From Stackebrandtia endophytica (GTDB lineage: Bacteria > Actinomycetota > Actinomycetes > Mycobacteriales > Micromonosporaceae), in NCBI RefSeq assembly GCF_006716355.1, contig NZ_VFOW01000001.1:4712001-4776000 (forward strand): a stretch of 64,000 bases of DNA, in the 5' to 3' direction. Positions 8,605 through 57,633 of this stretch are shown here, piece after piece; the stretch's first letter is position 1, and every line of letters starts with the position of its first letter. The notes under the pieces were generated by a model. That model was not told the DNA's origin. It saw only the letters and a list, made by a program, of their open reading frames with translations, and did no database searches. A program made the translations under genes and the position numbers.

Positions 8605-8761
8605 AAGCCCGACGCCCCACCGGAATCCGTCGAATAGGTCACGCCGCCTCCGGGCCGGACCGCGACCGCGCCAGACAGGGATCACAATGTTTCGAGTCTT
8701 GAGAATGATCGCGGGATATTCGTCGGCACCGGCCGACGGACCACGTTTCAGGAGGGGTGCG

Positions 8762-10087
8762 ATGACGCGAACTACCCTGATCATCGGTGGCGGTGCGGCG
8801 GGAGTCCTGCTTGCCGGGCAGTTGTGTCGCTCCAGCGACCACGAGGTGATCCTGGTGGATCCCTCCGAGAATCCCGGCGCCGGCGTCGCCTACGGGCACG
8901 CCGCCGCATGGCACCTGCTCAACTCCCCGGCGGCCACGATGAGCGCCGACCCCGACCAGCCCGGCCACTTCATGACCTGGGCCGACCAGGCGGGCAGCCC
9001 CATATCGGCCGGTGACTTCGCGCCCCGCTCGCTCTACGGCCGCTACCTGCGGGCCACCCTGGCCGACCTCGTCGACGCCGATCGGCTCCGCGTCATCCGC
9101 GCCGGGGTCACGGCCCTGGCCACCACCGACGAGCACGTGGTCGCCGACCTCGACGACGGTCGCCGATTGACCGTCACCGACGCCATTCTGGCCACCGGCA
9201 ATCCGGCCGGTGCGCAGCCGGTACCCGGCCTGGCCGACCACCCCCGATACATCGCCCGGCCCTGGACGCCCGGCGCCTTCGACGACCTCGACGACCGACC
9301 GGTACTGCTGATCGGCACCGGACTGACCGCCGTCGACATCGCATTGAGCGTCGCGGTGTTCCGGCCCGACGCGCCGGTTCACGCCGTCTCCCGCCACGGC
9401 CTGCTGCCCCAGGCGCACCGGGCCGGGAACCAGACCGCGACCGTGCAGACCCGGACCCCTGCCACCGACCCGTCACTGGCGGAACTGCTGGCCGCGATCC
9501 GCACCTCGGTGAGCAACACTGGAGACTGGCGGGCGGTCGTCGACGGACTGCGTCCACGTGTCGACGAATACTGGCGAGCCCTCAACCCACGATCCAAGGA
9601 GCGGTTCCTGGAACACCTGGCTCGACACTGGGAGGTGCACCGCCACCGGATGGCACCTCAGATCGCCGGACGGGTGAGCGGACTGGTCGACTCGGGACGC
9701 CTCACCGTGCGCGCCGACCGGATCAAGGCCGTCGACGTGTCGAGCGCCGATCGCATCGACGTGACCTTCGCCGACGGGACCGAGACCTCCTACGGCGCGG
9801 TCGTCAACTGCACCGGACCTGGCCGACTGCCCGGCGCCGCGGCACCGGTGGTGGCCCGCCTGCTGTCCCAGGGCCTGGCTCGGGTCGGACCGTACCGGCT
9901 CGGACTGGATGTCGACGACACCGGCCGCCTCATCGACGCGCAGGGTCGCACTAACCCGCGACTGTGGACGATCGGTGCCATGCGGCGCGGTCGACTCTGG
10001 GAAACCACCGCGGTGCCGGAGATTCGGGCTCAGGCCGTCACGCTGGCCACCGCGCTCGTCGGCGCCCCCGCCGAGTCCACGGTCTGA
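8762..10087 (+). CDS. FAD/NAD(P)-binding oxidoreductase (NAD_binding_9-like)
   Basis: A 441-residue flavoprotein. The N-terminal dinucleotide motif IIGGGAAGVLLAG near residue 6 binds FAD. NSPAATMSADPDQPGHF near 55-75 is typical of the FAD-NAD(P)-binding family of this type, and a second Rossmann motif LIGTGLTAVDIALSV near 180 would bind NAD(P)H. ATVQTRTP and a late INCTGPGR-like segment (VVNCTGPGRLPG) fit the same family. The ATG at 8762 is preceded by AGGAGG. The substrate is unknown; divergence from cysteine dioxygenase hints at sulfur metabolism. A MITE-like element begins exactly at its stop codon and may have trimmed its C-terminus. Confidence 0.8.
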   Translation: MTRTTLIIGGGAAGVLLAGQLCRSSDHEVILVDPSENPGAGVAYGHAAAWHLLNSPAATMSADPDQPGHFMTWADQAGSPISAGDFAPRSLYGRYLRATLADLVDADRLRVIRAGVTALATTDEHVVADLDDGRRLTVTDAILATGNPAGAQPVPGLADHPRYIARPWTPGAFDDLDDRPVLLIGTGLTAVDIALSVAVFRPDAPVHAVSRHGLLPQAHRAGNQTATVQTRTPATDPSLAELLAAIRTSVSNTGDWRAVVDGLRPRVDEYWRALNPRSKERFLEHLARHWEVHRHRMAPQIAGRVSGLVDSGRLTVRADRIKAVDVSSADRIDVTFADGTETSYGAVVNCTGPGRLPGAAAPVVARLLSQGLARVGPYRLGLDVDDTGRLIDAQGRTNPRLWTIGAMRRGRLWETTAVPEIRAQAVTLATALVGAPAESTV

Positions 10088-10269
10088 GAAGCTGTCTTTA
10101 AACCTGCTGTTCTGTTGCGCGTCGCCCAGACGGGCGCCTCGCGGCGAAGGCGTGCGTCCCTGCATACGCCATGCTTCTTCAGAAGCGCCGGTATGCAGGC
10201 ATCCCTCCGCCTTGCGAATGCACTCGCCTGGACACCGCTCACGACGAACGAGGTTCAAAGACAGCTTCT
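10087..10269. mobile_element. MITE-like inverted-repeat element
   Basis: About 183 bp bounded by terminal inverted repeats AGAAGCTGTCTTTAAACC (10087-10104) and the complement of AGAAGCTGTCTTTGAACC at the right end (10252-10269), with one mismatch. Weaker matches extend further inward. The centre holds a second palindrome: CCTGCATAC...GTATGCAGG around GCTTCT-TC-AGAAGC. No coding frame is present. Size and ends fit a non-autonomous miniature element. No clear target duplication is visible (TGA on the left, TAA on the right). Confidence 0.7.
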
Positions 10270-10323
10270 AAGAACCCGCCGACGGGTCGACGCCGCGGGG
10301 CACCGACGATTCGTACGGGCGCC

Positions 10324-10362: not shown

Positions 10363-11166
10363 TCAGGTCATCGAATCGGCGATCGCCACGCCGCGATCCC
10401 GAGCGGCCTCGACCGCGTCGGCCACCGCGGCGCGAACCCGGTGTCTCTCCAATTCCCGGATCGCGTTGATCGTGGTCCCGGCCGGGGAGGTCACCGCCTC
10501 CCGCAGTTGCACCGGGTGTTCGCCGGTGTCGCGCAGCATCGCGGCGGCTCCGACGGCGGTTTGAACGATCAGTTCGTGGGCGATGCTTCGCGGCAGACCC
10601 AGCAGGATCGCCGCATCGGTCATCGCCTCCACCAGGTAATAGAAGTAGGCGGGGCCTGAACCCGACAGCGCGGTGACGGCGTCCTGTTGCTTCTCCGGCA
10701 GCCGCAGGGTGCGGCCCAGCGGAGTGAACAGTTCCTCAGCGCGCTCCACATCGGAGTCCTTGGCGTGTCGGCCCGCCGACAGCACCGTGATCGCCTGATC
10801 CACCAGCGCCGGGGTGTTGGTCATCGCGCGCACCACGGCGGTCTGATCGGGGAGTCGCTTCTCGAAGAACGAGGTGGGCAGGCCCGCGCACAGGGACACC
10901 ACCAACCGACCCGGCGGAAGGTCGCCGAGTTCGATCAGCAGGTCCGCCGCGTCCTGTGGCTTGACCGCGATGACGACGATCTCGGCCTCGGTGATCGCCT
11001 CGGCCGTCGACAGCACGCGGACACCGAGGCTCTCGCGGACCTGTTCGACGTGTTCGCTACGGCGCACCGTGGCGATAAGGGCTTCCGGCGGCCAACCCGA
11101 CCGAGTCAGTCCAGCTAGGACAGTCCGGCCGATGCGGCCCGCTCCCAATACCGCCACGGTGACCAT
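10363..11166 (-). CDS. proC: Pyrroline-5-carboxylate reductase
   Basis: Reduces pyrroline-5-carboxylate to proline with NAD(P)H, the last step of proline synthesis. At 267 residues it has the usual size. The N-terminal Rossmann motif VAVLGAGRIGRTV and the C-terminal signature ALSGSGPAYFYYLVEAMTDA, followed by EAVTSPAGTTINAI, are diagnostic. The ATG at 11166 gives the normal N-terminus directly before the dinucleotide motif; a longer in-frame start at 11241 is less likely. It lies 82 bases downstream of rocD on the same strand, so ornithine can be converted through glutamate semialdehyde to proline. Confidence 0.95.
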   Translation of the reverse strand: MVTVAVLGAGRIGRTVLAGLTRSGWPPEALIATVRRSEHVEQVRESLGVRVLSTAEAITEAEIVVIAVKPQDAADLLIELGDLPPGRLVVSLCAGLPTSFFEKRLPDQTAVVRAMTNTPALVDQAITVLSAGRHAKDSDVERAEELFTPLGRTLRLPEKQQDAVTALSGSGPAYFYYLVEAMTDAAILLGLPRSIAHELIVQTAVGAAAMLRDTGEHPVQLREAVTSPAGTTINAIRELERHRVRAAVADAVEAARDRGVAIADSMT

Positions 11167-11248
11167 GGCAACGCTCCCTCTGTTCGTCCGATTCTCTTCG
11201 CAACCGGGGGTTCCGGCATCGTCGACGACGACTGCCGTCACCCCACTG

Positions 11249-57474: not shown

Positions 57475-57633
57475 AGACCAATTCGTGGCGGTGGTTTCGC
57501 CCGCCGGCGGCGTTGTCCTCGTTGCCGGTACAACCCCGGTACCGGCAACACCCATGTCGAAGCGGACGAGGGTTGAGGCGCCGTCGTCCCGGGCGACCCG
57601 GCCGGCGTCACACCCGGACGTTATCGTCCGGGC

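Follow-up and report, generated by a model that had tools for sequence, protein, structure and literature searches.

A MITE with IS5-like ends at the stop codon of a flavoprotein gene in Stackebrandtia endophytica shares a hairpin core with a class-wide superfamily

The segment at positions 10087–10269 of the window, as we call the whole analysed stretch of 64,000 nucleotides from Stackebrandtia endophytica, is a genuine MITE, and it belongs to a class-wide superfamily in which an interior hairpin core is kept and the ends differ. The MITE-like nature that an earlier note had read from the letters was borne out, as the segment is multi-copy in its own genome and its site is empty in the nearest genome of the same genus (G001). 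MITEs with IS ends are a known kind of element; a core common to many types of terminal inverted repeats (TIRs) and many genera was not met in the literature searched, mostly outside subscription journals, which contained no description of the element or of such a core, although this is not proof of absence. That one core goes with many end types, in 25 genera or more, raises the question of why a non-coding core should persist longer than its ends, and it opens end-swapping to tests.

The TIRs lie at 10087–10104 on the forward and at 10252–10269 on the reverse strand, and the repeat search recovered the 18 bp with one mismatch that had originally been described (2 matches as compared to 0.01 expected in shuffles); ungapped extension lengthens the repeats to 23 bp (10083–10105 and 10251–10273, 91% complementary). 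The inner palindrome was likewise confirmed. It comprises CTGCATAC...GTATGCAG and a further stem GCTTCT/AGAAGC (10160–10198, from sequence and fold), and it lies inside one long imperfect hairpin that is formed by the whole segment 10087–10269, with a fold energy of −92.5 kcal/mol versus −63.2 ± 4.0 kcal/mol in shuffles (z −7.3). Copies, fold, and alignment define the element proper, GAAGC...GCTTC or in full GAAGCTGTC...GACAGCTTC, as the 181 bp at 10088–10268. It is flanked on the forward strand by the TNA target triplets TGA (10085–10087) and TAA (10269–10271), which differ in the middle base and were assigned from the sequence and the edges of the copies, the left one also from the open reading frame and the comparison with G001. 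The upstream reading frame (8687–10087) ends in this TGA, and the statement that the element begins exactly at the TGA was correct because the TIR as it was then given starts with the A of the TGA.

A search of the own genome (G000, a single contig of 5.66 Mb) with the segment gave 42 matches, including the reversed self-match, and the best 20 of these, window copy included, were taken as loci; the other 19 are 73–87% identical to the window copy. Other copies were also found by a genome search for the element ends, with 45 matches of the end motif versus 5 of the reversed control. In the alignment of the 20 copies, ends of the form T-N-A-GAAGCTGTC...GACAGCTTC-T-N-A are common to most and decayed in four (L017–L020). 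Besides fragments, there is a second, shorter class of derivatives of about 60–70 bp that have both ends and no core (L186, L188, L189, L198, L202, L215, and L217). When 61 genomes among the relatives were searched for the element, six matched at E ≤ 0.001, namely the own genome, three of the same genus (G001, G003, and G004), one other member of the family with a match of 26 nt, and one genome from a different family within the order (G046). The copies in G001 are 71–76% identical, and no flank similarity and no shared positions were seen between the fetched copies of G000 and G001. A 17-mer of the element end occurs in 64 stretches scattered over unrelated bacteria in a scan of genome contigs, and plasmid and phage searches gave no match to the window element or to the G046 element.

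The ends point to the IS5 family (NF033580; PF13340 DUF4096 plus PF01609; groups IS427 and IS1031), which the element resembles in its TIR sequence, in its CTAG/CTNAG targets, and in its TA or TNA flanks, and of which the loci L161 and L268/L344 carry ends of the element type. IS427 duplicates TA, and IS1031 duplicates TNA. Actinobacterial IS5 elements with mixed features of the two groups, one of which recognises three nucleotides as its insertion site, are reported in PMC2516522. The search for transposases covered five genomes each for PF13359 and PF01609 and thirteen for PF13340. L161, from G003, is an IS of 939 bp with an IS5-family transposase (NF033580, 197 bits versus a cut-off of 110). 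Over 17 nt, its right end has the same sequence as the ends found in G001 copies, from which its left end departs at 3 positions; compared with the window end type, this IS (also L256) has 2–3 mismatches over 17 nt. The ends had been likened to those of IS-linked miniature elements, and this was supported, as an IS5-family element carries the end type of the sister species. Among further IS loci, one (L257, in G355) is identical at one end, over the first 15 nt, to an element of the same genome (L238), the better-matching IS5-family end of L268/L344 differs from the G303 type at 4 of 20 positions, and an IS5-family end at L338 has 2 mismatches in 18 to the G652 type; no IS fetched from G409 or G303 has the ends of the element. 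The own genome gave no close relative of the L161 transposase, and none of the transposase loci examined has the window's own ends (GAAGCTGTCTTTRAACC), so that the co-occurring transposase with the same ends, for which the earlier note had suggested a search, was not encountered among the loci of the families searched. The transposase that moved the window's family is therefore one that we infer, and its absence from the matches weakens the case for a partner within the genome but not the case for the mechanism. As its copies have diverged, the window's family may be inactive in its own genome. No transposase had been seen in the window, and all own-genome matches listed for the three domain families lie outside it (G000:C1:4712001-4776000), at distances from about 44 kb upwards. 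An IS-like element of the own genome with 15-bp inverted ends TAAGGGCTGTCCCG (L153/L162, at G000:C1:3421284) has ends that resemble the hairpin ends of other genomes of the class (G240 and G593).

We regard it as very probable that the segment is a MITE that is moved in trans by an IS5-family transposase recognising the ends of about 18 bp and inserting at CTNAG-like targets. An ordinary IS5-family member differs from the element, which has no transposase, is 155–190 bp long, and has an interior core that was not found in the IS examined. This core became apparent when the copies of G000, G001, G003, G004, and G046 were compared, as their interiors are alike and their TIRs differ. Its pattern, GCGTTGTCG and CCTCCGCCTTGC separated by 15–45 nt of any kind, is present in 11 of the 396 phylum genomes searched, with 28 copies in one of them, and the reversed control gave none throughout; viral contigs contain no match. 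Thirty fetched loci with the pattern are mostly long hairpins with different ends. A covariance model, R1, was built from 35 cores and covers, besides the core, about 24 nt to either side of it, TIRs excluded. As 24 of the cores were chosen by the exact pattern, the invariance of 21 pattern bases is by construction for these 24. R1 matches 82 of 296 genomes of the class (79 of 291 good ones) in 25 of 106 genera, with up to 13 candidates scored per genome, and it matches all 20 own-genome copies. The core arms vary compensatorily (at column pair 21/82, both sides are changed in 16 of the 35 cores), which does not follow from this choice of cores, and the mismatched middle is constant. The pattern was also considered as coding sequence, which was dropped, since the core spacing varies (matches of 44–55 nt) and there is no fixed frame.

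The window copy matches R1 at 10120–10240 on the forward strand with 44.4 bits (E 1.5e-8). The 3′ half of the core, CCTCCGCCTTGC, is present at 10204–10215 (forward strand; from sequence, alignment, and pattern), and the 5′ half has been lost, as the sequence, the alignment, and the R1 match place GCGAAGGCG at 10144–10152 of the forward strand, where related copies have GCGTTGTCG. Three copies, the window copy and two others (L001, L002, and L004), have this GCGAAGGCG in place of the 5′ half, a change that increases the complementarity of their arms, as though one had served as the template for the other.

The ends were compared at 49 distinct core sites, which remained of 60 loci after duplicates and loci not fitting the expression had been dropped. 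In 38 of these 49, complementary end segments reach a score of at least 13, as compared to 1 of 196 shifted controls, and CTAG or CTNAG is found at an edge of 31 of the 38. In most core-bearing elements, the core starts 51–61 nt from the left end and the length is 154–190 bp; the boundary finder failed or gave outliers at several loci. The end types include GTGCTGTGRCCGGAAAGG, GGGCCTGTCGTTCGGATCA, GGGCGTGTCTGACAATTC, and AGGGCTGTCCCGTAATCCC, and altogether, the core was found with about 20 different TIRs. This diversity bears on the usual explanation of MITEs as shrunken copies of one IS. The element could be a type I MITE of the ordinary sort, which arose from a single IS by internal deletion and whose interior is not conserved for its own sake, and TIRs that match or resemble those of IS5-family elements are what one would then see. 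However, the same core occurs with about 20 different TIRs, and the paired core was not found in the 40 IS-search loci scanned, with isolated halves only in 4 of 30 further IS loci (L258, L262, L264, and L277), and we thus consider this origin unlikely. A second possibility is that the core is an RNA or DNA element of use to the host, such as a bidirectional terminator, a stabiliser of mRNA 3′ ends, or a protein site, that was spread by transposition and is kept by host selection. The compensatory changes in the arms and the constant mismatched middle agree with this, as do the copies at gene ends and between genes, but copies also lie between divergent genes, the presence is patchy (82 of 296 genomes), and the fetched G000 and G001 copies have no similar flanks. 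Furthermore, 12 loci contain no Rfam family at the gathering threshold, the two sub-threshold matches near the window element do not lie over it, and no T-run follows the stem of the window copy. A benefit to the host is, in our view, likewise an unlikely explanation. Returning to trans-mobilisation by IS5-family transposases, a role for the core is a guess: the ends may be exchanged to suit the IS5-family transposase that happens to be there, with the core kept as an aid to mobilisation or tolerance, a reading that we tentatively favour.

Relatives on plasmids allowed mobility to be followed at single insertion sites. Three elements of the Streptomyces type match 34, 52, and 56 plasmid records from Streptomyces, Embleya, and Streptantibioticus, and one of these types was searched in phages, where there was none. 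Elements are present or absent in Streptomyces plasmids that are otherwise 97–99% identical, with TA on either side of the element, in one case altered to CA. At a racemase locus, the empty sites (L368 and L369) read GGCGCCCC-TA-GCCGG and the occupied site (L357) reads GGCGCCCC-CA, element, TA-GCCGG. This comparison shows insertion into CTAG with an apparent duplication of TA, one copy of which was changed. At fabG, the empty sites (L372 and L373) end with ...AACTTCTAG and the occupied one (L350) with ...AACTTTTAG, in which the G is from the element, and here the comparison shows how the first G of the element replaces the last base of the TAG stop, such that the stop is preserved. The empty pcaB site is too diverged for the target to be read. 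Of the 45 plasmid matches listed, the query is covered to 95% or more in 15, and the nine records annotated there represent eight distinct loci. A gene stop lies at the element edge in four of the eight (fabG, H1/H2; the racemase, H5; an MBL-fold protein, H16; a hypothetical protein, H21) and not in the other four (H7, H17, H18, and H22); outside this set, H24 has a stop at the edge and H39 has none.

Gene calling with a simple codon score, trained on the window, places all 20 copies of the own genome between genes, and a caller of this kind assigns 84% of the window to coding sequence. The flanking genes are convergent, tandem, or divergent. The stop of a neighbour is the TNA triplet, or a TAG with the first G of the element, in 7 of the 20 copies (L001–L005, L007, and L016), and three of the seven short derivatives (L202, L215, and L217) have a stop at the edge. 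A stop overlaps 4 of the 13 CTNAG sites that lie in non-coding parts of the window, a small null sample, so that these 7 in 20 are what target choice and selection would give; an active preference for stop codons was not supported. The two triplets of a copy often differ, at N only, and the middle base is the same on both sides in 8 of 16 copies, the four with decayed ends being left out (permutation p 0.054), which weakly supports a 3-bp (TNA) target duplication in the window's own family.

The gene upstream of the window copy encodes an FAD-NAD(P)-binding protein (PF13454, PF07992; 8687–10087, forward strand, true start probably 8762; from ORF, domains, and relatives), and the convergent downstream gene is proC, for pyrroline-5-carboxylate reductase (10363–11241, reverse strand; from ORF and domain/family match). 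The site that is occupied in the window is empty in G001, where the two genes are also convergent, the spacer is short, and the FAD gene ends with TGA at the corresponding place in a similar context. In G003 and G004, nothing element-like follows the FAD gene, but as the genes after it differ from those in the window, this shows merely that no element is near the stop. In a four-way alignment of the own protein with those of the three relatives, the FAD proteins end within a few residues of one another. The empty site with its TGA and the similar protein ends therefore indicate that in this lineage, the insertion occurred at the gene and not in it. The earlier note had envisaged that the insertion could have shortened the protein or supplied its stop. 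A truncated protein was rejected on the basis of the alignment, and the idea that the element supplied the stop and altered the protein, which the TGA touching the element may suggest, is highly improbable in view of the similar ends in three relatives and of the TGA that G001 has without the element. A stop supplied by the element is a fair description at the CTAG targets of relatives, where the element contributes the G of the TAG and the stop is the same as before. Annotators should be wary of reading truncation into every gene whose stop lies at the edge of a hairpin.

The distribution can be envisaged as follows. An IS5-family transposase with DUF4096 and DDE domains would recognise the ends of about 18 bp, move the MITE in trans, and insert it at CTNAG-like targets, which would give the TNA flanks. 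In the present high-GC genome, such targets would often contain a stop, either TAA, TGA, or a TAG that is completed by the first G of the element, and insertions inside genes would be selected against; for these two reasons, the surviving copies would be those between genes, many of them precisely at a stop. The window copy would then have inserted at the TGA already present, between the FAD gene and the convergent proC, with no effect on the protein. Stop-preserving insertion would be a simple and checkable reason for tolerance in gene-dense, high-GC genomes. It is plausible, if slightly short of an even chance, that an ancient core persists across the Actinomycetes by acquiring new ends for successive IS5-family transposases, that the terminal G together with CTAG/CTNAG rebuilds stops and so permits harmless settling, and that the constant mismatched core is a structural signal recognised by a host factor or transposition helper, so far undescribed.

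Among known systems, MITEAba12 (PMC6382973) and QMITE2 of Coxiella (PMC5896051) are similarly short, non-coding, and multi-copy, with TIRs that resemble those of co-resident or related IS, and a stop codon is reported immediately before one QMITE2 copy (PMC5896051). The elements described here differ from what is given there in that the interior is conserved over many TIR types and genera and the ends change. With REP/REPIN elements (PMC3733652, PMC3116915), they share intergenic palindromes in many copies. An element of this type, moved by a RAYT (Y1 transposase), would also account for a multi-copy intergenic hairpin, but 18-bp TIRs, CTAG/CTNAG edges with a duplicated TA in a relative, IS5-type ends, and a length of mostly 155–190 bp versus 20–40 bp for REPs (PMC3733652) make this reading very improbable.

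Further core-bearing sequences were observed in the own genome. Near two of the copies, there are additional matches to the core model (L016:2652-2771, E 2.7e-8; L006:983-1102, E 4.4e-4), and core-bearing hairpins in other surroundings (L220, L231, L237, L242, and L246) indicate more than one subfamily. The window itself has a weak match to the model at 57486–57611 (19.5 bits, E 0.019); the hairpin GTTGCCGGTAC...GTACCGGCAAC at this position, a few bases after a TAA, is possibly a decayed relative of the element.
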